Origin: Bacteroidales bacterium
Lineage (GTDB): Bacteria; Bacteroidota; Bacteroidia; Bacteroidales; UBA932
Direction: 5' to 3'
Length of the DNA: 64,000 nucleotides
NCBI GenBank assembly: GCA_017446775.1
Contig: JAFSQE010000035.1
Span: forward strand, 1 to 64,000
Both the position numbers and the translations under genes were made by a program. A model generated the notes under the pieces. The model was not told the DNA's origin, ran no database searches, and saw only the letters and a list, made by a program, of their open reading frames with translations. This document shows positions 2,477 to 50,963 of the stretch, piece after piece (the first letter of the stretch is position 1; the number at the start of each line of letters is the position of its first letter).

Positions 2477-3991
2477 CTAATATCCGGGATTTTGCTCCAG
2501 TGAGGGGGCCAGTTCACGGATATCGGACGGTATGGGAAAGATATCCGTATAGCGTGACGTCGCTTCGTCGGGGAGTTGGGGACGCAGTGTGGTTGCCGCC
2601 CCAAACTTGCCGAATCGGACAAGATCCTGCCTTCTTAACCCTTCCCAGGCAAATTCCCTGAGTCTCTCTTCCAGAAGGATGTCAAGGGTGAGTGTCTCCA
2701 GCTCCGATGCTCCGGAGCGTAAGCGGACCTCGTTCACCAGAAGCAGCGCATCATCGTCTTTGCTGGTACGAAGCAGGGCTTCTGCCTTCATCAGCAGAGC
2801 ATCGGCATAGCGGAATATAACCCAGTCATTGTCCATCAGTTTTCCGTCCTTGAAGGCGTTGTAGTCAGTCTGGTATTTGCGCATACGGGCGCCCGCGGTT
2901 TTTTCATCCGGGCTTCCGGTAAGGTCGAGGGCAATGGAACGTGGCTTGTATTCAACGGCAATCATCTTCCCGTCGGCGTCCGTGGGCACTCCGCCCCAAT
3001 AATTCATGTCGAATCGTGGATCTTCGTTTTCGGTACCGAAAGCGTTGGCCTCGAGCACTTCCGGCGTTGCCGACGAGCCGTTTTCTGCCGTGAAGCCTAT
3101 GGCCGAAGCGTGGTCGTAGTGAATTGAGCGGAAAATATACTGGTTTTGGGCCGAATATAGGTGTTTGTCCAGTGGTATTACGAATATGTTTTCGTCCGAC
3201 GACTCGTTGTGTACCAGGAAGTTGTCGGAGTACGAAGCGGAAAGGTCATAGCCGAATCCCTCAAGTGACTGGGCCATCTGGATCACTTTGTCGTAGTGCT
3301 CTTCTGAGGCGTAAACAGGTGCATTCAGATACAGTTTCTCAAGAAGGAACAATGCTACCGGAAGGGTGAACCGGCCATAATATTCACCCTGATGCTGGCT
3401 CATCACGGCAGGAAGCATTTCAGACACCTCCTCCAGTTCGTCTACTATGAAGAGGAAAACCTCGGCTCGGGGGCTCTGCTTTACTGCAGAAATTGAAATT
3501 CCGGGCTCCTTTAACACCGGAACGTTGCCGAACAGGTCCATGATATAGTAATAGAAATAGGCCCTGAGTGCGCGTGCTTCTGCCTGCCATTCTGGATAGT
3601 CCTTCAGCTCCCGGATGGCCTCGTTGGAAAGGACGACCATCTTGTATAGATAGTTCCAGGCGTTCTTGATGGGTGCTTCGGAAGTCTCCCAGTTATGCAG
3701 GAACAGCCTCTGCCACACTCCGCCGTCGTACCAGTCGCCGCCACGTGTGGGGATAATTGCTTCGTCGGTTGTGAAGGTGTTCAAGTCGTATATGCCGCGG
3801 TAGGTGCCGGCTATGCCTTCTCCTTCTGTGGATGAACCTATTTGCCTGTAGAGATTACCCAAAGTGTTCTGATACAGGGCTTTTTCTGAAGTAATGGCTT
3901 CTTCGCGAGCAAGGCTGCTTTTGGGATGCTCTTCCAGAAGCGAACATGCGGTAAGAGCTGTAAGGGCCAGTATGATAATAGCTTTTTTCAT
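2477..3991 (-). CDS. SusD/RagB family surface glycan-binding lipoprotein
   Basis: A 504-residue SusD-like lipoprotein that would cap the partner TonB-dependent channel and bind its substrate at the cell surface. The signal peptide carries a lipobox (LTAC, Cys16). The N-terminal half has the TPR-type helices of the family (ALYQNTLGNLYRQIG, ARALRAYFYYYIMDLFGNVP). The C-terminal half has the usual LMKAEALLR and LLEERLREFAWEGLRRQDL motifs and a terminal LEQNPGY. The ATG follows directly after the SusC stop (TAGATG), so translation is coupled. No glycan enzyme accompanies the pair, so the substrate is unknown. Confidence 0.96.
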   Translation of the reverse strand: MKKAIIILALTALTACSLLEEHPKSSLAREEAITSEKALYQNTLGNLYRQIGSSTEGEGIAGTYRGIYDLNTFTTDEAIIPTRGGDWYDGGVWQRLFLHNWETSEAPIKNAWNYLYKMVVLSNEAIRELKDYPEWQAEARALRAYFYYYIMDLFGNVPVLKEPGISISAVKQSPRAEVFLFIVDELEEVSEMLPAVMSQHQGEYYGRFTLPVALFLLEKLYLNAPVYASEEHYDKVIQMAQSLEGFGYDLSASYSDNFLVHNESSDENIFVIPLDKHLYSAQNQYIFRSIHYDHASAIGFTAENGSSATPEVLEANAFGTENEDPRFDMNYWGGVPTDADGKMIAVEYKPRSIALDLTGSPDEKTAGARMRKYQTDYNAFKDGKLMDNDWVIFRYADALLMKAEALLRTSKDDDALLLVNEVRLRSGASELETLTLDILLEERLREFAWEGLRRQDLVRFGKFGAATTLRPQLPDEATSRYTDIFPIPSDIRELAPSLEQNPGY

Positions 3992-6601
3992 CTAGAACTG
4001 AATGCTTGCAGACATGGAAAAGGAACGGTAAACTGGGTAGGAAATCTTGTCATCAAGGCCGAAGGTGGAACCCGTCACGGAGCTGTTTATCATGGGGGTG
4101 AGTCCGCTGTAGCCTGTAATGGTTGCAAGATTGTTGACAGAAAGGGAAAGCCTCAGAGAGCGGACAATCCGCTTTACAGGGATATTCCACCCCGTGGTTA
4201 TGTAGTCGATGTTAACGTAGTCTCCCCTTTCCAGCCAGTAATCTGTAACTGTTTGGTCTACTATATTTTGAGCGGGGGCATCGGCCGCTACATTGTAATA
4301 TGGGAGCGAGCCGGTGTTCATGTAAGTGAGGGCGGTGCCGTTGTAAATCTTGTGGCCGAAAGCCCCGTTCACCTGCATGGAAACGTCAAACGCTTTGTAA
4401 CGGAAGCTGATGTTGGAGCCAAGAAGGGCTTTTGGCGCCGCCTGGCCGCAAATATGGTTAATCCCGTCGGTCTCATAATATCTGGTACCGTCATCGGCCA
4501 CTTTCAATCCTGTGCAATGAGGCATATAAAAGACACCAAGCGGCTGCCCGACAATTTGATATACAACATCGTTGTGGCCTCCGTGGAAGCCGGCGCCCGT
4601 CATGGCGTTCATAGCCTGGATTTCCGGGGCCTCCAGATACTGGCCCTGCCACCATCCAGAGAGGGAGATCAGCCTGTTCTGTTGGAATGCAAGGTTCATG
4701 GAAAGGTTCAGCTGGGAATCAGAAGTCCTCATGATATTGGCGCCTAGTCCCACTTCTACGCCGGAGTTTGACATCTTGCCAAGGTTGGCCATCAGTTTGT
4801 TATAAGCAAACGGCGGCACGCTCACCTCGTACATGTAAAGCATGTCCCGAGTGATGGAATTGTAGTATTCGGCCGTGAACACCAGCCTGCCTTCTACAAA
4901 GGCCGATTCAAGCCCCAGGTTTACCTGCTCCCTCACTTCCCAGCGAAGATCCGGATTTGCGTTGTGCATCTCGCCGAAGGTTACGGCAACGTCACCGCCA
5001 TAAGGGGCAATCCCCGTCGGCGATACAGTCTGGAGGGAATAATAGGGCGTAAGCGCCCCCTGGTTGCCGGAAAGACCGTATCCGACATTCAGCTTAAGCC
5101 GTTGCAGCCACTCCACGCTCTCCATGAAAGGCTCGTTGGATGCAATCCACGAGGCTGATACAGATGGGAACAGCCCCCAGATATGGTTGGCTCCGAAAAG
5201 CGAAGCCGCATCTGACCTTAGGGTGCCGGAAATGGAGTAACGGTTGGCGTAAGAGTAGACTGCCTGCCCCATCACGGACAGCATGTTCTGCATCTCCCAG
5301 ACAGAGCCCGTACCCTCCCACGGCCTTATCGCTCCTGCCTGTATGGCATTGATGCCATAAGCGTTGGTGGAGAAGCCAGTGGTAGTGGCATAGAAACCGC
5401 TGGAACTGCTGCCTTGAATCTCGCCCATGAGGTTTGTGGACAACTGGTGCGGCCCACTTTCAAAGACATAAGCAAGGTCAAGATAGCCCCGGTATTCGCT
5501 TTGTGAAGTTGTGCTACGGTAGGCTTCGCCGCCGGACCAGATGATGGTTGGGAAGAAGTGACTGTCGTTGATGACATTGTAGCTGTAAGAGGCGAATCCG
5601 CTGAGGGTGAGGTTTTTCAACAGCTCGGCCCTTGTCAGGACATGGGCGTTGAAGTGGGCCGTCGCGCCGCCGAAAGTCTTTTCCAGCAGGGAAACAGGAT
5701 GGTTTATCTGGCTGGCGGTAGGGATTTGTACATAGCTGCCGTCTGGTTCGGCCCCTGCGCGTATCGTGGGGTTGAACGTTGCGGCAGAGTAAAAGAGTTT
5801 CTGCATGTCGTGGATGGCATCTTCGTTTTGCAGCGAACCGAAAAGACCAAGGTCTACCTGGAGGAAGCCAAAAGCCTTCTGCCCAACATCCAGTTTCACC
5901 GAATAATTCTGGATATTCTGATTTCTTACCACGGACCGGTGGTCAAGGACGACAACGGAAGCCCTGTAATTGCTGTTATCTGAACCACCGCCAAAAGCGA
6001 TGTGATGGTTCTGTACAAAACCTGTCCGGAGAATGGACGACACCATGTCCGAGTCGAAACCGTCGTCCCTGAATGTATATCCATGATTTATGTTCCAACG
6101 CCTGAAGCCATCGGCAGAAAGCATTTTCAGATTCCTGTACACAGTTTCAGCACCCGCGGTTCCGTCGTAGCTTATGCTGAAATCTCCACCCTGCCCCCTT
6201 GTGGTGAGGACCTGAATTACGCCGGATGCACCCCTGGAACCGTATGGGGCGGTCTCCGATGCATCCTTGAGGACGGTGAAACTCTCTATGTCGCCGGGAT
6301 ACAGGGAACTAAGGGTGGCCAGGTCCGACATCACTCCGTCTATCACCACCAGAGGATCGTTGCCGCCGGTAAGCGATGTGGTTCCCCTGACCCGGACGGC
6401 GCTTAGCATGGCCGACTGGTTGGCTCCCGACACCGTTACGCCCGCCGCCTGGCCCTGCAAGGCGCCCAAGCCGCTTGTAACAAGGCCCTTGTTCATCTGT
6501 TCCTTATCTACGGTATGGAAAGTGCTTAAGGTATCGTTCTGTGCCGCTGCTGCCCAGCTGGACAATAATAAAGCAGCCGCGAGACATATTTTAAGACGCA
6601 T
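3992..6601 (-). CDS. SusC/RagA family TonB-dependent receptor
   Basis: An 869-residue outer-membrane TonB-dependent transporter of the SusC type. A signal peptide (cleaved near residue 20) is followed almost at once by the plug domain, with the family motifs VRVRGTTSLTGGNDPLVVID (about 69-88) and the ASETAPYGSRGASGVI-like segment. The rest is the 22-strand barrel ending in SMSASIQF. Most SusC proteins are about 1000 residues and carry an N-terminal carboxypeptidase-regulatory-like domain; that domain is missing here. The gene is directly followed by SusD. Its promoter probably lies at 6623-6630, separate from the transporter gene upstream. Confidence 0.96.
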   Translation of the reverse strand: MRLKICLAAALLLSSWAAAAQNDTLSTFHTVDKEQMNKGLVTSGLGALQGQAAGVTVSGANQSAMLSAVRVRGTTSLTGGNDPLVVIDGVMSDLATLSSLYPGDIESFTVLKDASETAPYGSRGASGVIQVLTTRGQGGDFSISYDGTAGAETVYRNLKMLSADGFRRWNINHGYTFRDDGFDSDMVSSILRTGFVQNHHIAFGGGSDNSNYRASVVVLDHRSVVRNQNIQNYSVKLDVGQKAFGFLQVDLGLFGSLQNEDAIHDMQKLFYSAATFNPTIRAGAEPDGSYVQIPTASQINHPVSLLEKTFGGATAHFNAHVLTRAELLKNLTLSGFASYSYNVINDSHFFPTIIWSGGEAYRSTTSQSEYRGYLDLAYVFESGPHQLSTNLMGEIQGSSSSGFYATTTGFSTNAYGINAIQAGAIRPWEGTGSVWEMQNMLSVMGQAVYSYANRYSISGTLRSDAASLFGANHIWGLFPSVSASWIASNEPFMESVEWLQRLKLNVGYGLSGNQGALTPYYSLQTVSPTGIAPYGGDVAVTFGEMHNANPDLRWEVREQVNLGLESAFVEGRLVFTAEYYNSITRDMLYMYEVSVPPFAYNKLMANLGKMSNSGVEVGLGANIMRTSDSQLNLSMNLAFQQNRLISLSGWWQGQYLEAPEIQAMNAMTGAGFHGGHNDVVYQIVGQPLGVFYMPHCTGLKVADDGTRYYETDGINHICGQAAPKALLGSNISFRYKAFDVSMQVNGAFGHKIYNGTALTYMNTGSLPYYNVAADAPAQNIVDQTVTDYWLERGDYVNIDYITTGWNIPVKRIVRSLRLSLSVNNLATITGYSGLTPMINSSVTGSTFGLDDKISYPVYRSFSMSASIQF

Positions 6602-6650: not shown

Positions 6651-8612
6651 CTACTCCTGGAAAGAATATCCGAATCCGGCGCGGGAGGTCAGGCTTTCAG
6701 CATAAGGGCCGATCTTCTTGCGGATGCGGGTGATGTTCACATCCACAGTGCGGGGTGTGACAATTACATCGTTGGGCCATACTTCAGATAGCAGCTGCTC
6801 CCGCGAGAACATCTTCCCCCGGTTTTCCAGGAAGAGTTTCAGCAGTTCGTATTCGGTTTTTGTGAAGGGTATCACATCTCCGTCTATGGTCACCTTCTTG
6901 GCGTCGGTGTCTATCTGTATTCCGCGGAAGCGGATACCGTTGCGCACGGCGCCCAGGCGGGCTTCCACCACATTGATGATATAATCGCCCGTTTTTTCGC
7001 ACTCGACGATAAGGTCGGCAAACACGGTTCCAATGTCGTAACCGTACATATGGGCGTCCAGATTGTCGATATTCTGCTGTTTGAGGGCATTGCGGCAGGC
7101 ATTGATACTGTGCTCTATCTCTTCTGATACGGCAAGGCTGAAGTTCTCCCTGCGTCCGGCAAGCAGGGCATTCATCCGCGTCAGGGCGTCATCTACCAAA
7201 GAGAACATCTTCTGCATGCCATCTTCCTGCAGCTCTGTAAAGATGATTTTATTGCTCCGCTTGCGCTTTATGATGCGGGCCAGGTTGAAACAGCTGTCGC
7301 CAACCGACTCCAGCTCCCCTATCTGACGGAGCATCGCCCGTATCTTCTCCTTGGTGTCATCGGAGAGGTGTGCCGATCCCAGATCGCTCAGATAGCGCCC
7401 GATTTCGTTCTCCATACGGTCGCTCCCCTCCTCGCCCTTCTGGATGCGTTCGAACAGTCTGGTGAAGGCCTGTTCGTCCGTCGTGGCATACAGTTCACGG
7501 ACCAGGGCAAACATATGCTGAGTATTCTCGCCAAACACCGTAATCTCTTTCTGCGCCTGCAGCACGGATATTTCTGGCGTCTTCATGATACCGCCACGTA
7601 TGTACTGCATGCGGAAGGCATCCTCTTCTTCGCTCTTAAGCGGCTGTATAATCTTGCAGACAAGCTTCTCCAGTTGCGGAATGAACCAGATGAGGATAGC
7701 TGTGTTTATCACATTGAAACAGGTGTGGAAGGTCGCCAGTGCAAAGGAGAGATGTGTGGAATTCTGCTCCGGGGCAGTCGGATCAAGGCCCACAATCCCG
7801 CACACCATCCGCACAAACGGGAAGAACAGGAGAAGCACCCAGATGACGCCGAATACGTTGAAAAGCAGGTGGGCGAAGGCGGTCCGGCGGGCCTGCGTGT
7901 TTGCGCTCATGGCTGCCAGGTTGGCGGTGACCGTGGTGCCGATGTTTTCTCCCATGACCAGGGCGATTCCCTGATAGATGGAGATTGCCCCCGTGGCGCA
8001 GAGGACCATAGTAATTGCTATCAGCGCGGCGGAACTCTGGACGATGGCGGTAAGAACGGTACCGATAAGCAGGAACAGCAGTATCGTGCCGTAATTTGTC
8101 TGGAAGCTGGAGAAGAATTCCACGACGGCGGGCTTGCTGGCCAGGTCCATCTCCACCCCCGTTGCCTTAAGCATCCCCAACGCAAACAGCAGGAAACTGA
8201 GTCCGAAGAGGAAGTCGCCAAAGTACCGGTGCCGCCCCACCTGGATAAAGATGATGCCGAGAATGAACGCCGGCCACACAACATTGACAATGTTGAAAGA
8301 AAACCCCGCCGACATGATCCAGGCGCTCATCGTGGTGCCGATGTTGGCGCCCATGATTACAGATATGGCCTGCGACAGCGTCAGGAGTGCGGCGTTTACA
8401 AAGGATACCGTCATCACTGTGGTTGCGGCAGAAGACTGGACGGCGACAGTAACCAGGGCTCCGGTGGCGACGCCGGAGAAGCGGTTGGTTGTCATGGCGC
8501 CCAACAAGTGACGGAGCTGCGGACCTGCCATCTTCTGCAGGGCCTCGCTCATCGTCTTCATGCCGAATATCAAAAGGGCGATTGAGCCAAGGAGTTTTAA
8601 TGCAATAAGCAT
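6651..8612 (-). CDS. Na/Pi transporter fused to PhoU-like and OmpR-type winged-helix domains
   Basis: A 653-residue protein with three parts in one frame. Residues 1 to about 330 are a Na+/phosphate cotransporter of the NptA/SLC34 type, with both inverted-repeat signatures (VQSSAATTV with GANIGTT; VQSSAALIA with GENIGTT). About 345-550 is a helical PhoU-like domain, common at the C-terminus of bacterial relatives. About 565-653 is an OmpR/PhoB-type winged-helix DNA-binding domain: FTKTEYELLKLF, REQLLSEVW, RTVDVNITRIRKKIG and a final GFGYSF wing. Relatives I know end after the PhoU domain, near 550-570 residues. The winged helix would be cytoplasmic, suggesting a membrane-bound phosphate-sensing regulator; that role is inference. 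It lies just downstream of the LytTR/LytS pair, with its own upstream region. Confidence 0.9.
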   Translation of the reverse strand: MLIALKLLGSIALLIFGMKTMSEALQKMAGPQLRHLLGAMTTNRFSGVATGALVTVAVQSSAATTVMTVSFVNAALLTLSQAISVIMGANIGTTMSAWIMSAGFSFNIVNVVWPAFILGIIFIQVGRHRYFGDFLFGLSFLLFALGMLKATGVEMDLASKPAVVEFFSSFQTNYGTILLFLLIGTVLTAIVQSSAALIAITMVLCATGAISIYQGIALVMGENIGTTVTANLAAMSANTQARRTAFAHLLFNVFGVIWVLLLFFPFVRMVCGIVGLDPTAPEQNSTHLSFALATFHTCFNVINTAILIWFIPQLEKLVCKIIQPLKSEEEDAFRMQYIRGGIMKTPEISVLQAQKEITVFGENTQHMFALVRELYATTDEQAFTRLFERIQKGEEGSDRMENEIGRYLSDLGSAHLSDDTKEKIRAMLRQIGELESVGDSCFNLARIIKRKRSNKIIFTELQEDGMQKMFSLVDDALTRMNALLAGRRENFSLAVSEEIEHSINACRNALKQQNIDNLDAHMYGYDIGTVFADLIVECEKTGDYIINVVEARLGAVRNGIRFRGIQIDTDAKKVTIDGDVIPFTKTEYELLKLFLENRGKMFSREQLLSEVWPNDVIVTPRTVDVNITRIRKKIGPYAESLTSRAGFGYSFQE

Positions 8613-8623
8613 AATAAAAGTGA

Positions 8624-8647
8624 TTATTGTTCGAATTTAAACAATAA
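8624..8647. promoter_or_regulatory. Inverted repeat upstream of the Na/Pi-winged-helix gene
   Basis: An 8-bp perfect inverted repeat (TTATTGTT 8624-8631, AACAATAA 8640-8647) with an 8-bp spacer sits 12 bases before the start of the transporter-regulator gene. The minus strand also holds TAAATTCG, a one-mismatch -7 box, inside it. It could be an operator, perhaps autoregulatory, or a leader hairpin. Confidence 0.4.
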
Positions 8648-8687
8648 CGACGGTTTTCTCAAGAGATAAATCCATTGTAACAGAATT

Positions 8688-9392
8688 TTAACGCCCGGAT
8701 TCTTTCACATACCGCTCCATGAATCCGGCCCGGTAAGTGTCGCCCACTGGGAGAGAGCGTCCGTTGTCCAGAATCACGGAAGATTTGCCGGCGGCAGTGA
8801 TGCGGGTAATGTCGGCCACGTAGGACTTGTGTATGCGCACGAAACGGTCTGTGGGCAGTTCCTGCAGGATTTGTTTAAACGACGACAGGACGACAAGCGG
8901 CGATTGGGATGAGGCGAGAAAGATTTTCATATATGGCCCGACGCTCTCCAGGTAACATATATCGGACACCTTCACCGGCACAATCTTGTAATCCGACTTG
9001 AAATAGACCAGTTTCTCCTGCTGCTGGCCATTGGAAGCACGCATTTTCAACGCCTCGCGGACCCTGTCGACGGCACGGGAAAAATCGTCGAAGGTAAAGG
9101 GCTTGAGCAGGTAATCCACGGCGCCCACCTTGAAGGCGTCCACGGCATAATCTGCGAAAGCCGTGGTGAAAACCACCAGCGGCGGATTCTCCAGAGAGGC
9201 TACGAAGTCCATTCCGGACTGAAGCGGCATATTGATATCGGCAAAGATGACATCCACTTTGTCCAGGAATGTCCGTGCCTGCTCTGTATCGGTGCAGGCG
9301 GCAGCAATCTCCAAATCCGGAATCTTTGCTGCAAACACCCCCAGCAGCCTGAGTGCCAGAGGCTCGTCGTCCATTGCAAGGGCGCGGATCAT
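8688..9392 (-). CDS. LytTR-family response regulator
   Basis: A 234-residue LytR/AlgR-type response regulator. Residues 1-115 are the receiver, with the acidic pair near residues 8-9, the phospho-acceptor Asp51 in FADINMP, a Thr in the TTAF motif and Lys in LLKPF. From about 128 on is the LytTR DNA-binding domain, with YLESVGPYMKIF, FVRIHKSYV and a final LPVGDTYR. LytTR regulators bind pairs of roughly 9-bp direct repeats one to two helical turns apart. Such a pair (10496-10530) lies just upstream of the partner kinase gene. Its ATG overlaps the kinase stop by four bases. Confidence 0.96.
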   Translation of the reverse strand: MIRALAMDDEPLALRLLGVFAAKIPDLEIAAACTDTEQARTFLDKVDVIFADINMPLQSGMDFVASLENPPLVVFTTAFADYAVDAFKVGAVDYLLKPFTFDDFSRAVDRVREALKMRASNGQQQEKLVYFKSDYKIVPVKVSDICYLESVGPYMKIFLASSQSPLVVLSSFKQILQELPTDRFVRIHKSYVADITRITAAGKSSVILDNGRSLPVGDTYRAGFMERYVKESGR

Positions 9393-10438
9393 AGCACACC
9401 TCCTTCAGCAATGGCCGGGATTGACATCAGCACATTATACACGCCATCTTCGGCTCCGCATTTCAGGGTGAAATCCTTGTTATATATCAGCGCCAGACGG
9501 CTCTGCACATTGCTTATACCTACGCCGCCGTCCACAGTCTCTTCCCGGATGTTCTGCGCTTCCAACGTGTTGGAGCAGCGGAAAACCACCCGGCCATCTT
9601 CTTCCCGGACGGATATCCGGATGAACGACCCCGGCTTGGACTTGCTCCCGTGCTTGAAAGCATTCTCCACGAATGACATCATCGACAGCGCCGGAACCAT
9701 GGCATCCCCTCCTCTTTCTGGGCTCTCAAATGAGATTTCTACCGTTTCGGGCCACTGTAACCTCATAAGAGACACAAAGTGGCTGATAAACTGTAACTCC
9801 CTTTCCAGAGGAATCAATGCCGTATGTCCCTCGCTCAGCACCATCCGCATCAGTTTGGAGAATTCGCTGATACACTCCGTCGCTTTCTCCGGCTCCGTGA
9901 GCACCAGCGCCTGTATGTTGTTCAGGGTGTTCATAAAGAAGTGAGGATTGATCTGATAGCGAAGGAATTCCATCTGCTGCGCCAGGCTCACCGCACGCAG
10001 TTCCTGAACCTTTCGTTCGTTTTCTGCAGAGAGAACCATAGCTTTGATGCCCAGGTTGACCAGTATGAGCAGGATCCCGATAACGACCTTCATCACCTCC
10101 GGGGAAAAGGGCCGCTGAACACCGGGCGGTGCTTCCACCGCGCCGTTGGCTCCGGCCGGAGGGCCGATGATGGTGGCCAGGATATAAAAGGCGAATGCCA
10201 CGAAAACGGTTGTGCTCAAAGTGAAATACAGCCAATATTTCTTTTTGAAAAACAGCGGTGCAAGCAGGAAATTGTGGATGCAGAAAAGGATGAGGTACGG
10301 CAGGATTTCCAGCCAGTTAAGCAGGACGACCGTCAAACTGAAACCGTTCTCGCGGCCGATGACATACTGGAATAGATACATCAACGGGACAGCGGCGAAT
10401 ACCACGATCCAAAAAAGGGCGAACCCTTTGATTTCCAT
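9389..10438 (-). CDS. LytS-type sensor histidine kinase
   Basis: A roughly 349-residue membrane histidine kinase of the His_kinase/LytS family. Four hydrophobic segments (about residues 5-25, 38-62, 70-92 and 115-138) precede the phospho-acceptor region LRYQINPHFFMNTLNN, with His166. The ATPase domain follows, with VENAFKHG (N box) and GGVGISNVQSRL (G box). No extracytoplasmic sensor domain of note is present, so the signal is probably sensed in or at the membrane. I chose ATG 10438 because the longer in-frame start at 10474 lies upstream of a good -7 box (10463-10470). The gene is translationally coupled to the LytTR regulator. Confidence 0.93.
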   Translation of the reverse strand: MEIKGFALFWIVVFAAVPLMYLFQYVIGRENGFSLTVVLLNWLEILPYLILFCIHNFLLAPLFFKKKYWLYFTLSTTVFVAFAFYILATIIGPPAGANGAVEAPPGVQRPFSPEVMKVVIGILLILVNLGIKAMVLSAENERKVQELRAVSLAQQMEFLRYQINPHFFMNTLNNIQALVLTEPEKATECISEFSKLMRMVLSEGHTALIPLERELQFISHFVSLMRLQWPETVEISFESPERGGDAMVPALSMMSFVENAFKHGSKSKPGSFIRISVREEDGRVVFRCSNTLEAQNIREETVDGGVGISNVQSRLALIYNKDFTLKCGAEDGVYNVLMSIPAIAEGGVL

Positions 10439-10462
10439 TCTTGATTCCCGTGTCATCATATG

Positions 10463-10470
10463 CAAAATTA
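10463..10470 (-). promoter_or_regulatory. -7 box of the LytS-LytTR operon
   Basis: The minus strand reads TAATTTTG, an exact TAnnTTTG match 24 bases before the chosen kinase start. The tandem repeats at 10496-10530 lie about 26-60 bases upstream, where an activator would bind. Confidence 0.55.
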
Positions 10471-10495
10471 GCATTTTTTTCCGCTGGGTGCGAGT

Positions 10496-10599: not shown

Positions 10600-13467
10600 A
10601 TGTGCAAGAAATACCTGTCACTTATCCCGGCATTGGCCCTGGTGCTGATGACTGCAGGATGCATGGCCGATGAGATATTCACGACCGACGAGGCTTTTCC
10701 CTCCGGCGACAGTTCTTCCACCCTTGCCGACCCCGGCCTTGCATGGAGCGAATCGGCCTTTGAGGCCACCATCGGCGAGCAAAACTGCTTTCCAACCCTT
10801 AGCAACAGCCACAATTTGAGCATAAGCTACTCTTCATCTCAAAACTTAGTTGCTACGATAGATGAAGAGGGTAATATCACTCTTCTTTCGGCCGGCACCA
10901 CCGCCATCATGGCTACCTCCGGCGCCACGGATACCTATGCCTCCGGGAGCGCTTCATACGCCCTTACAGTGGTAAAGGGCAGCGGCGCCATCGACTGGAA
11001 TGCAAACAGTTGCACAGTGAATATCGGCGAGCTGACCCACACCTTCCCTACGCTCTACAACCCCGGAAACCAAACAGTAAGTTACACTTCCAGCAACGAG
11101 AGCGTGGCCACCATAAGCAGCGACGGAACCGTTACCCTGGTTGCCGAAGGGAGCACTACCATCACGGCCTCAGCCGAGGCGAATGATGCCTACGAGGCTG
11201 CCAGCGTCTCCTACGACCTTATCGTAGAAGGGGATCTTGCCGCGGCGGGCCTTATCTGGAGCGAATCCAGCTACACGGCTTCTCTGGCATACGATGGCAA
11301 CAGTTTCCCTACCCTGTCCAATCCCAACTCACTTGACGTGAGCTTCTTTTCTTCAGACGAGAGCATCGCCACCATAGACGGTAGCGGAAACATCACACTG
11401 GTTTCGGCCGGAACGACATCCATCATCGCCAGCTCCGAAGCCAATGACACTTACGCCTCGGGCAGCGCCTCCTTCACACTGAAAGTGGTGAAAAACACAG
11501 TCACCCTTGGTTGGAGCGAGTCCACCTTCAGCGTCGTGCTGGAAGATGGTTCATCAACCTGGCCCACACTCGGCATCAACCCGTCCGATGCGGGAATCAC
11601 AGTCAGCTACAGCTCCTCCAACACCTCGGTAGCCACCATCGATGCCGCCGGGAACATCACCCTCGCGGGAGCCGGAACCACCACCATATCCGCTATCTTC
11701 GAGGGCAACACCTGTTACAAGGCTGCTTCTGCCTGCTATACGCTTACAGTGACAAGCAGCGCCGATGACGGAGCGGTGACCACCGTCTTTGACCCGGCGG
11801 GCGGCGGAACATCTGACGATGATATCTCCAACACGACCTTTACGCGCCTGGTGACAGTTACCTACTCTTCGGGCGGGGCCAGCGTGAGCGGATACAGCGC
11901 CGTGGCCGGCGTGATGAACGTGGGCGTAAGCGGAAACCAGGTCACCATCACCTACACCGGCAGCGAGAATGTGGCGTACAAGCTCACCGGCACAGCCTCC
12001 AACGGTTTTTTCAAGCTCTATAGTTCCAAGAAACAGGCCTTGTGGCTCAGCGACCTAAGTCTTACCTGCACCAGCGGCGCGGCCATCAACAACCAGAGCG
12101 GCAAGCGCACCTTCGTTTATGTCGATGGCACCAATACCATAGCCGACGGCTCCTCTGCCGGCTATTCCACTACGGGCGACGAAGATATGAAGGGCGTCCT
12201 CTTCTCCGAGGGGCAGCTGATCTTCAGCGGCAGCGGCAGCCTCAAAGTTACGGCGAACAATGCCAAGGGCAAGTCCGGCATTGTATCGGATGACTATGTG
12301 CGTATGCTGGGCACACCCTCCATAACCGTTACGGCTGGAAGCGGTGCAGGACACGGCATCAAGTCCAACGACTACGTGCAGATCGGCGCAGGTACGCTCA
12401 ATATCAGTACCGCGGCGGCCATGAAAAAGGGTATCACCTCCGATGACTACGTCCTTGTAGAAGGCGGCGCCACCACCATCAAGGTCACCGGCGGCGTAGC
12501 CTACGACAGCGAAGATGGGGAATACACCGGCACGGCAGGCATCAAGGCCGATAACTACTTTGCAATGACCGGCGGCTCCGTGACAATTACCAACAGCGGT
12601 ACGGGCGGCAAGGGCATCCGGGCCGGAAGCTACGACTACGATGCCACAAACCACACAGTGGCCGACACCTATATCAGCGGTGGAACGCTCACCATTACCA
12701 CCACCGGCAGCGAATCAAATGATGTCTCCTCCAAGGGGATGAAGATAGGCTGGGTTACCAAAAACGGCAGCGGCGACCGTGCCAAGGTCACCGGATATGC
12801 CGGCAATCTGAAAATCAGCGGCGGTAAAGTTATCGTTAATGCCTCCAAAAGTGAGGGCATCGAGGCCAAGGGAGACATCGTCATTTCCGGTGGCGAGGTA
12901 TATGTAAGCTCCACCGGCGACGATGCCATCAACAGTCAGGCAGAATTCGATGTTACCGGGGGCTATGTGTATGCATATTCCAGCGCCAACGACGCCATGG
13001 ACGCCAACCACGACATGAAACTCTCCGGCGGTTACATATTCGCCGTCACCACCAAGGGTACCCCGGAAGTTGCCCTGGACGCCAACACAGAGGAGAAATA
13101 CAAGCTCTATATCACCGGAGCCACAGTGGTGGCCTACGGCGGCCTGGAAAGCGGCTATTCCTCTTCCAACACCGTCTACACGCTATCCGGTACGGCTAAC
13201 TCCTGGAACGCCCTGTATGACGGCAGCTCCTTTATCGCGGCCTTCAAGGCCCCTTCTGGCCTGAGTTCCTTCGCCGTTACAGCCCCCTCCCTCAAGAGCG
13301 GCTACAAGGGCGTCACGGTAAGCGGAACCACCTACAGCAACGGCATCTGGGCCACGAGCGGCATTTCCGGCGGAACATCCGTTTCGCTGAGCACCTACAG
13401 CGGAGGAGGCAGTGGCCCCGGTGGCGGCTACCCCGGTGGCCCCGGCGGAGGTGGATTTCCCTGGTAA
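10600..13467 (+). CDS. Cthe_2159-type surface lipoprotein with four Ig-like repeats
   Basis: A 955-residue lipoprotein (lipobox ending at Cys21). Residues about 47-125, 130-210, 217-298 and 303-385 are four bacterial Ig-like (BIg2-type) repeats, each with the pattern SSNxSVATIDxxGNITL. From about 390 to 900 is a right-handed beta-helix-like region with turns such as GIKSNDYV, GITSDDYV and GDDAINSQ, typical of the Cthe_2159 carbohydrate-binding family (structurally close to pectate lyases, known to bind polygalacturonate and cellulose). The last 25 residues are very Gly/Pro-rich. Homologues often lie beside VTC-domain and DUF4956 genes, as here. Its role with polyphosphate synthesis is not established. 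First gene of the operon. Confidence 0.9.
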   Translation: MCKKYLSLIPALALVLMTAGCMADEIFTTDEAFPSGDSSSTLADPGLAWSESAFEATIGEQNCFPTLSNSHNLSISYSSSQNLVATIDEEGNITLLSAGTTAIMATSGATDTYASGSASYALTVVKGSGAIDWNANSCTVNIGELTHTFPTLYNPGNQTVSYTSSNESVATISSDGTVTLVAEGSTTITASAEANDAYEAASVSYDLIVEGDLAAAGLIWSESSYTASLAYDGNSFPTLSNPNSLDVSFFSSDESIATIDGSGNITLVSAGTTSIIASSEANDTYASGSASFTLKVVKNTVTLGWSESTFSVVLEDGSSTWPTLGINPSDAGITVSYSSSNTSVATIDAAGNITLAGAGTTTISAIFEGNTCYKAASACYTLTVTSSADDGAVTTVFDPAGGGTSDDDISNTTFTRLVTVTYSSGGASVSGYSAVAGVMNVGVSGNQVTITYTGSENVAYKLTGTASNGFFKLYSSKKQALWLSDLSLTCTSGAAINNQSGKRTFVYVDGTNTIADGSSAGYSTTGDEDMKGVLFSEGQLIFSGSGSLKVTANNAKGKSGIVSDDYVRMLGTPSITVTAGSGAGHGIKSNDYVQIGAGTLNISTAAAMKKGITSDDYVLVEGGATTIKVTGGVAYDSEDGEYTGTAGIKADNYFAMTGGSVTITNSGTGGKGIRAGSYDYDATNHTVADTYISGGTLTITTTGSESNDVSSKGMKIGWVTKNGSGDRAKVTGYAGNLKISGGKVIVNASKSEGIEAKGDIVISGGEVYVSSTGDDAINSQAEFDVTGGYVYAYSSANDAMDANHDMKLSGGYIFAVTTKGTPEVALDANTEEKYKLYITGATVVAYGGLESGYSSSNTVYTLSGTANSWNALYDGSSFIAAFKAPSGLSSFAVTAPSLKSGYKGVTVSGTTYSNGIWATSGISGGTSVSLSTYSGGGSGPGGGYPGGPGGGGFPW

Positions 13468-13488
13468 TCCCATAATAACGACAGAACC

Positions 13489-13902
13489 ATGAAACGAATC
13501 ATTATCCTTATAACTATGGCCCTGGCTCCGGTATTTGCCGCGTCTGCCCAGGACGCTACCCCCAGAATCAACAAGAAGAATCTGGTAGTCAAAGAATGGA
13601 ATACCAACGCCAAAGGGGTCGCAAAGACGCTCGACCACGTGACAACCTACTCTGCCGAGGGTAAGAAGACAGAGGAGATCGAGTACGACAACGCCGGCAA
13701 GCAGAAATGGCGCAAGCGCTACGAATGGGGGGCTAACGGCAAGCAGACCCGCGAACTGGTCTATGACGAGCGGAACCGGCTGGTAAACTACAAGACCTTC
13801 GAATACAACGAATTCGGAAAGAAAAAGGCGCAGTATACCTACGACGCCAAAGGAAAGCTCATCGGCACCAAAATCTTTGAATATATAGCACAAGATGAAT
13901 GA
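13489..13902 (+). CDS. Small secreted protein with YD-like repeats
   Basis: A 137-residue exported protein. A signal peptide (residues 1-20, ending in ASAQ) is followed by about five imperfect 17-20-residue repeats of the form (T)YxxxGKxxxxxxYD, resembling YwqK/RHS-like antiparallel strands (YSAEGKKTEEIEYD, YDAKGKLIGTKIFEY). No named family is certain. It starts 21 bases after the Cthe_2159-like gene and its stop overlaps the start of the VTC gene, so it belongs to the operon. It could be a periplasmic accessory of the surface protein or of the polymerase. Confidence 0.8.
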   Translation: MKRIIILITMALAPVFAASAQDATPRINKKNLVVKEWNTNAKGVAKTLDHVTTYSAEGKKTEEIEYDNAGKQKWRKRYEWGANGKQTRELVYDERNRLVNYKTFEYNEFGKKKAQYTYDAKGKLIGTKIFEYIAQDE

Positions 13903-14688
13903 CATGTCTGTCACCAAAGCCAAAATCCTGGAGAAATTCGCCCCCATCACGCTGGAAGAGATGGAGGGGGTGAAACTTCTCAACCGCATAGACACCAAGT
14001 ACCTTACCGACGAGGCCACTCTTGGCAAGATACTCTCCGATGCCGCTGCGGCAGGTTACCGGGCGTTGGTGGCAGAGGGGGTGAAGATAAGCCCATACAA
14101 CTCGGTGTACTTTGATACTCCGCAGCTTAAGATGTTCCTGGATCACCACAACAGAAGGCTGGTGAGACAGAAAGTGAGGACACGCATATATGTAAATTCC
14201 GGAGAAGCATTTCTGGAGATAAAGCGCAAGAACAACCACGGCCGGACGAAGAAAAAGAGAATCGGCATAAACGAGAATGAGATTATGGCGTTCGCTTCAA
14301 ATACTTCTGCCTGTGAGTATCTGGCAAAACATTCCTGGTTCACTGCAGAGGATATTAAACCTGTGCTCTCCACGGCATTTGAGAGGATTACGCTGGTGAA
14401 TCCTGCACAGACGGAACGGCTTACCATCGACACCCGGTTGCATTTCAAGAACTACCGTACCGGAATGACCACCTCTCTGGAAGACGCCGTCATCATAGAA
14501 CTCAAGCAGGACGGCCACGCCGCCAGCCAGATGAAAACATCCTGCTGGATAACCGGGTAAAGCCCGTTCGCATCAGCAAATACTGCATAGCGGTGACTCT
14601 TACGGACCCTTCAGTCAAAAGCAACCGCTTCAAGGTAAAGGTCCGCACCATAGAAAAGACAATTAACAAAAAGATTCAAGTGATATGA
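13895..14688 (+). pseudogene. VTC-domain polyphosphate polymerase, frameshifted
   Basis: This encodes a VTC-domain protein, the catalytic fold of eukaryotic VTC4 that makes polyphosphate from nucleotide. Family features are visible: NRIDTKYLTD near the N-terminus, YFDTPQLKMFLDHHN, basic residues RQKVRTRIY and FLEIKRKNNHGRTKKKR, and IIELKQDGH. The frame stops early at 14560. From about 14535 the -1 frame continues with a plausible C-terminus (NILLDNRVKPVRISKYCIAV) to a TGA at 14686-14688 that overlaps the next start as ATGA. One extra A in the AAAA run at about 14533-14536 would restore a 264-residue protein. It is either a real deletion, a slippage site, or a sequencing error. Confidence 0.88.
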
Positions 14689-15449
14689 TTACAGCCCAGG
14701 ATTTCGGCGAATATACCCTTGCCGACGACAGCATCATCGATGTACAGACCATCACCGATGCCATGATGACCACCACCCAGTCCCTGACGGAGCTGGCCAT
14801 CCGTTTCTTCGTGAACCTTGCAGTGTGCTGGATTCTGGTCCAGTTCTTCTACTACCGGAAGAGCCGCCGCCGCGACTATTACTTCACCTTCATGGTCTTC
14901 TCCACGGCCATGCTCATGCTGCTGTACATCATGGGCAACGTTGAGGTGGGCGTAGGCCTTACCCTGGGTCTGTTCGCCATCTTCGGGGTCATCCGCTACC
15001 GTACGGAGACGGTCCCCATACGGGAGATGACCTATCTGTTTGTCATCATCGCACTGGCTGCCGTCAATGGTCTGGCTCCCGTGTATAAACTTGTAGAAGC
15101 TACATCGGCCCATCCGCACTATGCACTCTCCGGAGGGACGGTGGGCATCATGGTGCTCTCCAATCTGTTGGTGATTGCGCTTGTGTGGGTTCTGGAAAGC
15201 GGGAAGATGCTCAAACATACATCGGCCAAGCTGGTTCTCTACGACCGCATCGACCTGATTGTACCCGAGCGTCGCAAGGAACTTGTCGCCGACCTGGAAA
15301 AACGCATCGGCCTCAAGGTAGAAGGCGTTGAAGTAGGCCACGTCGATTTTCTCAAGGACGCCGCTTTCATCAAGGTGTACTACACTCTGGAAGATGGCAA
15401 TACTGGCTCCATAGACAGCCTGACCAAGGCAAAGAACTTTGTTGGATAA
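14685..15449 (+). CDS. DUF4956 membrane protein
   Basis: A 254-residue DUF4956 protein: four predicted membrane helices (about residues 38-55, 66-84, 88-105, 118-135, with another near 155-170) and a soluble C-terminal domain from about 180. The conserved cytoplasmic-loop motif GLFAIFGVIRYRTETVPIREMTYLF is present, quoted here only as its ends GLFAIFG and REMTYLF. DUF4956 genes regularly neighbour VTC-domain genes and may form the membrane part of a polyphosphate-handling complex; the biochemical role is unknown. Its ATG overlaps the stop of the repaired VTC frame, which supports translational coupling. Confidence 0.92.
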   Translation: MITAQDFGEYTLADDSIIDVQTITDAMMTTTQSLTELAIRFFVNLAVCWILVQFFYYRKSRRRDYYFTFMVFSTAMLMLLYIMGNVEVGVGLTLGLFAIFGVIRYRTETVPIREMTYLFVIIALAAVNGLAPVYKLVEATSAHPHYALSGGTVGIMVLSNLLVIALVWVLESGKMLKHTSAKLVLYDRIDLIVPERRKELVADLEKRIGLKVEGVEVGHVDFLKDAAFIKVYYTLEDGNTGSIDSLTKAKNFVG

Positions 15450-49316: not shown

Positions 49317-50963
49317 TTATTTTACGGTAAACGATTTGCGGTGGTGCGGGCAGAGTCCGTATCGGCGGATAGCTGCGCGGTGCTCTTCTGTCGGGTAACC
49401 CATATTGTGGGCCCAGCCATACTGCGGATACTCTTTGTCAAGCCGGAGCATATACCTGTCCCTGAATGTCTTTGCAAGGATAGATGCGGCGCTGATTTCC
49501 GGAACCTTATCATCTCCCTTCACGATGCATTTATGCGGTATGCGATTGCCCTCAGGCCCGTAATACGGATTGAAACGGTTGCCGTCTACCAGAATAATAT
49601 CCGGCGCCACCTGCTGCCCGCTACCGTTGTGCAGCCCCTTTAGCGCCAGATGCATCGCCTTGATAGAGGCCTGCAGGATGTTGATCTCGTCGATTTCTGC
49701 CGCAGAGACACTGGCCACGCTCCATGCAAGAGCTTCCCGCTCTATTACCTCGCACATAGTATCGCGCTGCGCCGCCGTCATCTTCTTGGAATCTTTAAGC
49801 AGCGGATGGTAGAACCCCTCCGGAAGGATTACGGCAGCGGCAAATACCGGCCCTGCGAGCGGCCCGCGACCTGCCTCGTCGCAGCCGGCAATCACGCCGT
49901 AGGCGGCGGTTTCTGCGCCAAACAATGTCCCTTCAGAAGGGAGATAGTCGCTGCGGTAGGCAGCGCGGCACCAGGACGCTATCTTCTGCTCAAAATCTGT
50001 GGCGAGCAGTGCTGTATCGCAAATCGACGGGTCGCTGCCTAAAGTATTCTTCCCGCAGACAACATAGAGTCGCCGGCAAGCTTTCTGGCACATCTGGGCC
50101 AGGCTGCCCACCAGCTTGCCGTTAAGGCTGGAGGCATCCAGGCACCCTTCTCCGGTAATCACCAGCCTGGAAGAAAGAATCTTCTCTTCAAGAGAAACCA
50201 TCTCGGAAAACATAGAGAAACCGTGCACCGGGGTCGCTCTTAAAAAGGCATACAGCGCCGCTCCGCTTCCGCCGGCGGTACCGCCCCCGGCAACAGTATC
50301 AAAATCAAGGCGGTCTTCGTGCCCTATCTGTTTGAGCCAGCTGCGGGCGGTGTCGACCCAATCGAGCATACGCTGCTCCAGAACCGGCAACATCTGGCTG
50401 TCGGCACCCTTTTGCGGGGCGTAGGTGTAGGTCGCCCCGTGCGGGCCGGTGAGCGGATTGCGGGCATCGCAGGCAACCTGCACTTCGATATTATCAAAAC
50501 GGCTCAGGTTCTCCAGCCCAATGGCTTCTATCATGCCCCGTCCGCCGTCGTTTGTGGCGCTTCCCCCTACCCCGACAATTATCCGGCGCGGAGAATACTC
50601 CAATGCAGCCAACAGCATCAGGCCCAGGCCGTATGTGGTGGTCTTTAACGGGTTGCGTTCTGCATGGTCTATCATCATAAGTCCGCTGCAGCGCGCCAGC
50701 TCAATAAAAACGGTATCGCCAGCCACTGCCATTGGGGCCACGATATCGCGCATCAGGGGGTCTTTGGTGTCGACCCAGACCTCACTGGCGCCAGGATAGT
50801 TCTGCAGGAAGACATCCAGCGACCCCTCCCCGCCGTCGGCCAGCGGTATGGAGACAATCTCTTCTGCAGTATTGCCGCTGCGACGGATCTCATCGCGGAA
50901 CTTCTCTGCAATCTGAGGGGCGGTGAAGGTGCCCTTGAACTTATCCGGGACCAGCAGTATCAT
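49317..50963 (-). CDS. Glycerate kinase-ribonuclease HII fusion
   Basis: A single 548-residue frame joins two normally separate enzymes. Residues 1 to about 345 are a GarK-type glycerate kinase ([38 protein letters not shown]), making phosphoglycerate from glycerate. Residues about 355-548 are ribonuclease HII ([12 protein letters not shown] with the first two acidic residues at 362-363, [17 protein letters not shown]), which removes ribonucleotides from DNA. The junction (about base 49905-49930) is a short linker with no internal start that is better than the rest. The kinase C-terminus is perhaps 20-30 residues shorter than usual. Both domains look intact. The gene follows an alpha/beta hydrolase by three bases. 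Confidence 0.93.

Follow-up and report, generated by a model that had tools for sequence, protein, structure and literature searches.

A Na/Pi transporter joined to a PhoU domain and a PhoB-type winged helix: a recurrent gene fusion of gut Bacteroidales with a Pho-box-like repeat at its own promoter

The way in which a signal is transmitted from PhoU and a phosphate transporter to the PhoR/PhoB pair is a long-standing open question, and several described systems lie close to it. Among membrane-bound regulators, CadC and ToxR have their winged helix at the N-terminus, followed by a single membrane helix and a periplasmic sensor. PhoPR activity in S. aureus is reported to be influenced by the PhoU domain of NptA, a phosphate transporter (PMC13170248). 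PMC4415409 describes the ‘PHO box’ as a pair of direct repeats, each 11 nt long and with seven bases that are well conserved, and cites work in which the output domain of PhoB can bind DNA constitutively once the receiver is missing. A search of the literature (mainly outside subscription journals) returned no paper that describes a transporter fused with a winged helix of the OmpR type.

The gene described here has exactly that arrangement. It was found in a 64,000-nucleotide stretch of DNA from a Bacteroidales bacterium (the whole of which is termed ‘the window’ below). The fusion is real, recurrent and under selection in the window’s clade, with an unusually clear evolutionary origin, and the Pho-box-like repeat that precedes the gene is a new point beyond the original observation.

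The fused gene, its distribution and its neighbours

The gene occupies positions 6651..8612 (minus strand) as a single open frame of 653 aa, which runs from ATG to stop with no internal stop codon or other interruption in its translation; the first-pass annotation’s description of an uninterrupted frame containing a transporter, a PhoU domain and a winged helix is borne out by searches of Pfam and NCBIfam. The transporter part (residues about 1-325; 7638..8612, minus strand) contains two Na_Pi_cotrans stretches (PF02690, E 5.7e-53), with the QSSA motifs of its repeats at residues 59-62 and 192-195, and the NCBIfam model TIGR00704 matches residues 1-324; several hydrophobic segments lie between residues 1 and 278. 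The PhoU-like part (residues about 345-553, with limits drawn by eye; 6954..7580, minus strand) matches PF01895 at residues 360-448 (E 4.8e-8). Residues 557-653 (6654..6944, minus strand) form a PhoB-type winged helix: a match of the last residues to Trans_reg_C, which had been named as a test of the fusion, was found at residues 580-651 and covers nearly the full profile (PF00486, positions 3-77 of 77, E 5.2e-19).

Of the NCBIfam response-regulator models, that of Bacteroidetes PhoB ranks first for this C-terminus (NF053854, E 1.8e-34), with a score of 119 bits against a cut-off of 270 bits that applies to the whole protein; residues 558-652 align to positions 131-225 of its 225, which correspond to the output half of PhoB only. 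In the PDB, this stretch is also matched by PhoB chains (best E 1.5e-13), which rank behind ArlR and two other regulators. No match to the receiver domain (PF00072) was found in the fused protein at E 0.001 in Pfam; the protein is without a receiver, and hence is not a two-component response regulator of the OmpR/PhoB type. Alignment with free PhoB places the recognition-helix stretch, RTVDVNITRIRKKI, at residues 621-634 (6711..6752, minus strand), where it is identical to the free PhoB of two unfused loci (L092, in which it reads RTVDVNITRIRKKL, and L077) save for I/L at the final position. All 16 of the fused proteins picked for one alignment (A2) carry the three Pfam domains, and in the fused proteins that were aligned hardly any linker separates the last PhoU helix from the strand with which the winged helix begins. 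Judged by architecture, the protein would count as a ‘membrane-integrated one-component regulator’, in which input and DNA-binding output are combined in one membrane protein.

The same domain order, for which a search of other genomes had been proposed, is found repeatedly. When a gene is counted as fused if its match reaches query residue 651-653, at least 33 such genes are present in at least 30 of 299 family genomes, distributed over four genera (at least ten genomes in g1, at least 12 in g46, at least seven in g39 and at least one in g4); 32 of the 33 were aligned, with the fusion of G169 counted but outside the alignments. In a set of 60 relatives, the full-length form is present in ten genomes, all from the window’s genus, and in a named genome collection 27 of the best 80 loci are fused. 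Many titles in that collection name the rumen or other stomach compartments (four loci are labelled Bacteroidaceae), and the hosts of the fusion are gut bacteria, largely of ruminants. At the level of the order, at least two of 393 genomes have a fusion (G000 and G680, at E 1e-60), and at the level of the phylum the window’s own is the sole one among 345 genomes at E 1e-90, a threshold that distant fusions could escape. The earlier statement that known relatives stop after the PhoU domain holds for most of the homologues seen, but the fused form recurs. An assembly chimera or frameshift, raised as a possible objection near positions 6910-6960, is ruled out, because the same fused frame recurs in many independent assemblies, among them a short MAG contig from a separate assembly (L098) whose protein is 99% identical to that of the window. 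An extra N-terminal domain in one fused locus (L061, with a 963-codon open frame) was also considered and rejected, as the added stretch resembles, by eye, a non-coding reading.

In the window, a LytTR response regulator and a LytS-type kinase lie directly upstream of the fused gene (8688-10474, minus strand), a SusC/SusD-type pair starts about 50 bp after it (2477-6601, minus strand), and genes for a Cthe_2159/Big_2 protein, a VTC domain protein and a DUF4956 protein follow one another in the same direction (10600-15449, plus strand). A conserved operon with LytTR/LytS, SusC/SusD or VTC was rejected as a general trait, since the neighbours differ between loci: a LytS-like gene is present at three fused loci (the window included), and the SusC/SusD pair is not conserved beside other fusions. 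An operon containing VTC had been placed within 2.5 kb; a neighbouring gene does start at 10600, but it is the one encoding the Cthe_2159/Big_2 protein, and the VTC gene begins at 13895, 5.3 kb away. No VTC gene was labelled at 29 other fused loci, in a scan whose flanks were limited by contig ends and whose scope did not extend to the DUF4956 gene, and the suggested link to VTC is not supported.

L058 also has a LytTR/LytS-like pair near its fusion, along with a Cthe_2159-like gene, and L061 has one whose sequence is more distant. A lipoprotein-like gene of 145 aa is divergent to the fusion in six loci (L037, L004, L038, L045, L047 and L057), where the two genes have a common upstream region; the copy in L037 (6416-6853 of that locus) has no Pfam family match. 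Elsewhere in the window, a 548-codon frame (49317-50963, minus strand) resembles, by eye, a glycerate kinase joined to ribonuclease HII.

Origin of the fusion and the phosphate genes that accompany it

At four unfused loci (L073, L077, L092 and L136), a full phoB gene and a short histidine kinase gene lie directly downstream of the transporter, and at another (L076) phoB is next downstream. In Prevotella sp. tc2-28 (L217) the gene order is transporter-transporter-phoB-phoR, and the receiver, winged helix, HisKA and HATPase domains of the latter two genes were all confirmed by domain search. An operon of the form transporter-PhoU/phoB/phoR is the likely source of the fusion. The ancestral operon would have comprised genes for a PhoU-containing Na/Pi transporter, for PhoB and for a short kinase resembling PhoR. 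Loss of the receiver part of phoB, which is supported by comparison of the loci, would then have placed the output domain of PhoB immediately behind the PhoU domain.

In a tree of 70 transporter sequences, 12 fused sequences (including that of the window) and 16 unfused ones make up clade A (support 100/100); clade B (100/100) comprises seven fused sequences and one unfused, with L077 as its sister (100/99); and the four fused sequences of clade C (100/99) have Prevotella tc2-28 as sister (100/97). The fused or unfused label changes at least nine times on this tree, with six changes forced by well-supported branches. Given that a lost receiver is hard to regain, these placements point to at least three separate fusions and several losses as the probable history, although one early fusion followed by losses would be compatible with the tree taken by itself. 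No decayed winged helix was found behind 64 of 69 unfused relatives, as searched over up to 1.5 kb or to the contig end (the downstream stretch being at least 300 bp in 68 of the 69), and the remaining five have an adjacent phoB.

Two fusions assigned to different genera, L047 (G316, g46) and L004 (G001, g1), are nearly identical, with tree branches of 0.006 and 0.012, which suggests horizontal transfer or misplaced contigs.

Within the window’s genus, no standalone Trans_reg_C protein was found in 26 genomes (several of them incomplete), the ten matches being the ten fusions. A PhoB over the curated cut-off is present, among the matches listed, in one of the 30 fused family genomes (G245, assigned by E-value) and in at least 182 of the 269 other family genomes. 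Tallied by hand at E < 1e-75 among the matches listed, PhoB was counted in none of 12 fused genomes of g46 versus 35 of 50 others (p 8e-6) and in none of seven fused genomes of g39 versus eight of 33 others (p 0.31), by Fisher tests that ignore kinship. The PhoB matches of two genomes (G268 and G270) lie near E 1e-71, short of that line, and both a fusion and PhoB are kept in G245 and in L129 (a clade C fusion). PstB over the cut-off is found in none of the 26 genus genomes, where the PstB-like matches of two members without a fusion (G002 and G013) fall slightly short of the 343-bit cut-off, at 316 and 332 bits.

A Pho-box-like repeat ahead of the fused gene

Reading of the upstream sequence and a motif scan identified a Pho-box-like direct repeat, GTTAAAATTCTGTTACAAT, at positions 8674..8692 (minus strand), 62-80 bp ahead of the start codon. 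It consists of two near-identical units with an 11-bp period, and shares bases with the stop codon of the LytTR gene that lies upstream. A possible -33 element, TTGA (8659..8662, minus strand), and a possible -7 element, TAAATTCG (8632..8639, minus strand; TATCTTTG in several relatives), presumably form the promoter, on the assumption that the former fits the promoter consensus and the latter the consensus TAnnTTTG.

The window’s box scores 16/16 and is the sole match of 13 or more in the 64 kb. Over the columns of the box, the majority base has a mean share of 0.97 in ten loci of clade A (close kin among them), versus 0.66 on the upstream side and 0.77 on the downstream side. Since the motif itself was derived from the promoters of clade A, scores within that clade are partly circular, and independent support for the box must lie outside it. 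In a count of 127 loci (from which L076, with its gene start cut off, was omitted), a score of at least 14 is reached at 25 of 32 fused loci with a PhoB-like recognition helix, four of 27 fused loci with a changed helix, two of four unfused loci with an adjacent phoB, and one of 64 other unfused loci; the helix classes rest on a pattern picked after seeing the data, and place L137 and L138 among the diverged despite a box and a nearly canonical helix. Once near-copies are thinned, the same four classes give 10/15, 4/20, 2/4 and 1/53, and fused loci with a PhoB-like helix differ from the other unfused loci (p 1e-7) and from those with a changed helix (p 0.013) in Fisher tests that again disregard kinship; a threshold of 13 gives 12/15, 4/20, 2/4 and 5/53. 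The class of other unfused loci includes many Prevotella, some with PhoB elsewhere, and is not simply PhoB-less: its sole member with a box of at least 14 is Segatella copri, which has its own PhoB. One locus with an unchanged recognition helix (L062) has no box.

Outside clade A, a reversed box about 100 bp ahead of the gene scores 14-15 in four of the six fusions of clade C, and those of G245 (L055) and L129 score 13 and 12. The unfused operons L073 and L136 have a box at -82, and no box was found at L077 and L092, which also have an adjacent phoB. In a further set of 13 phoB loci (L078-L090), a box precedes phoB or a phosphate permease gene in three: in L079 it lies 75 bp before phoB, in L086 in the interval that separates phoB from a divergent permease gene of the PHO4 family, and in L084 ahead of a PHO4-type permease (identified by resemblance); the other ten gave no box match. 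Several of the box matches in relatives are weak or intragenic, as in L091 (inside a gene) and in L178 and L180 (at a gene end before pstB). Its presence in clade C, in phoB operons and at phoB and permease loci makes it most likely that the repeat is, as predicted from sequence, a Pho box of this family.

Some close relatives (L063-L072 and L111-L122) are without a winged helix, an adjacent phoB or a box of at least 14, and their transporter seems to have dropped out of Pho-type control.

The number of targets was addressed by a genome-wide box search of 14 genus genomes, seven fused and seven unfused, against a reversed control. The own promoters of the seven fused genomes match with no mismatch (G000, G008, G018 and G019), one (G017) or two (G001 and G021). 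In the window’s genome, there is a single exact match, that of the own promoter, and no other match has fewer than two mismatches; across the 14 genomes, the only other match of that quality is in G025, which has no fusion. These results bear upon a reading in which the fused winged helix has replaced PhoB with a wider regulon of many phosphate genes, which we consider unlikely. Such a reading would fit the retention of PhoB’s helix and the scarcity, among the matches listed, of PhoB over the cut-off in fused genomes; moreover, real Pho boxes vary widely (PMC4415409), a strict pattern catches only the strongest of them, and the window’s genome contains four further two-mismatch sites, versus none in its control, one of them common to the fused genome G021. 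However, the 46 matches in the 14 genomes comprise the seven own promoters and 39 other sites, versus 33 in the reversed control, and the two recurring sites that were inspected do so also in genomes without the fusion. The first is a weaker box-like site 61-64 bp ahead of orthologous large genes (64 bp before a gene of 966 codons in the window’s genome) in two fused genomes and one unfused (L228:1520-1538 in G000, L229:3155-3173 in G021 and L224:1564-1582 in G025); the second also turns up in G021, G010 and G025 and for the most part sits inside the final stretch of the upstream gene, as it does in the unfused G010 and G025. The remaining two sites (C5 and C35), 40 and 33 bp ahead of a gene, showed no recurrence in the other genomes. 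No fusion-specific second target emerged among the sites inspected with the strict pattern (at most 40 of the 46), and a wider regulon defined by that pattern was rejected. Control of its own gene is the best-supported function of the fused protein, which may have further targets.

Proposed regulation, and comparison with known systems

We think it likely that a phosphate-control system has been condensed here into one membrane-anchored, self-regulating chain, with sensing, DNA binding and the direction of control as we infer them from the arrangement of its parts. The winged helix would stay tethered to the membrane, retain the PhoB recognition helix and bind the Pho box ahead of its own gene. 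Since the output domain of PhoB can bind constitutively once it is rid of the receiver, the PhoU/transporter part must gate it (otherwise the gene would always be on), and this part would have taken over that role; a gated output would be more useful than one that is always on, and would explain why box and helix are retained together. Under low cytosolic phosphate or transport, the PhoU part would let go of the winged helix and the gene would be activated from just upstream of the -33 element, a position of the box that itself suggests activation; when phosphate is plentiful, PhoU would hold the winged helix off. The main, perhaps sole, target would be the own promoter, and the gene of a membrane protein may, more speculatively, be drawn to the membrane during expression, which would suit a tethered factor. 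The fullest version of this proposal, that a carrier has become its own transcription factor with essentially one target, its own promoter, and has done so at least three times in parallel by excision of kinase and receiver from a transporter-PhoU/phoB/phoR operon, with a relay of three proteins reduced to one chain, seems to us about evenly balanced between right and wrong.

The core of the original suggestion of a membrane-anchored one-component regulator that bypasses PhoR/PhoB is favoured by the operon origin, the loss of the receiver, the lack of a PhoB over the cut-off in 29 of 30 fused genomes among the matches listed, the selection described below and the box at the own promoter. Its claim regarding PhoR goes further than the genomes do: HisKA kinases remain, many in frames of more than 1000 codons, so that PhoR as such may still be present. 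Phosphate transport or occupancy would be the putative signal read by the protein.

The direction of control would be different if the transporter part were a YjbB-like phosphate exporter, with the winged helix controlling relief from excess phosphate rather than starvation. This is a doubtful reading, though one with several points behind it: YjbB, a Na/Pi protein, promotes export (PMC11389368) and is reported to be insufficient for import in E. coli (PMC13170248), and a second Na/Pi gene in the window’s genome could be the importer. Against it, a search for PstC (the importer gene that was checked) gave matches in four of 26 chosen unfused genomes but in no fused one out of 30, so that some importer is needed, and NptA of S. 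aureus, which has a PhoU domain, imports phosphate (PMC13170248).

It is improbable that the winged helix no longer acts on DNA and survives as a remnant, whether simply tolerated or useful in stabilising the PhoU domain. In clade A its dN/dS is 0.03-0.06 in five pairs and 0.08 and 0.11 in two more, and is lower than that of the PhoU part in all seven (three of the 16 pairs analysed overall being saturated); for the window and L036 it is 0.057. In six other pairs, drawn from clade B and from members with a changed helix, the values are 0.07-0.17. By this measure the winged helix is under purifying selection, firm around the window and looser elsewhere. The weaker constraint, the recognition helices that have diverged and the boxes that are missing in most of clade B, L044/L046, L059 and L060, and the many near relatives without a winged helix (hence the repeated label changes on the tree) are what would be expected of a remnant; but the window’s closest relatives keep the helix unchanged, the box present and the lowest range of dN/dS. 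The near relatives without the domain also speak against the self-regulating chain that we prefer, as do the scarcity of the box at loci with a diverged helix, its absence at L062, at ten of the 13 phoB loci and at two of the four unfused loci with an adjacent phoB, the coexistence of fusion and PhoB in G245 and L129, and the four additional two-mismatch sites in the window’s genome. L044 and L046 are second fusions of their genomes (G286 and G289); their recognition helix is strongly altered, no box of at least 14 precedes them, and they may have a different target.

Membrane-tethered factors can be set free by proteolysis or made from internal starts, and the sequence here would be compatible with either, but action of this winged helix as a soluble factor is very improbable, given the almost linker-free junction with the last PhoU helix.

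If the self-regulating chain is correctly described, evolution has seemingly removed the kinase and receiver while the transporter, PhoU domain, DNA-binding domain and operator were kept. Should the fusion still respond to phosphate, PhoU or the transporter alone would suffice to gate an output domain, a proposition testable with one gene and one promoter. The fused genes and their unfused sister operons offer a natural series of intermediates. The fusion would also illustrate how two components may collapse into a one-component system.

Among known systems, NptA of S. aureus is alike in being a Na/Pi symporter with a C-terminal PhoU domain, but it signals to a separate PhoR/PhoP pair, whereas the fusion holds the PhoB output domain in the same chain. 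PhoB itself (Bacteroidetes NF053854; E. coli chains 1gxp and 3t72) has the same winged helix and the same 11-bp direct-repeat type of box; in contrast to it, the fusion has no receiver, hence no usual route of phosphorylation, and is membrane-bound. CadC and ToxR likewise place a sensor and a winged helix in one membrane protein (PMC5430869, for CadC), but the fusion has its winged helix at the C-terminus, includes a whole transporter and contains several hydrophobic segments; because the winged helix is at the other end and there are several membrane segments, the fused protein is not a member of the ToxR/CadC family. CbrA, in which an SLC5 transporter is combined with a sensor kinase, provides a precedent for a transporter domain within a signalling protein (PMC7096432), but it carries a kinase and acts with a separate CbrB, whereas the fusion joins the transporter straight to a DNA-binding domain.
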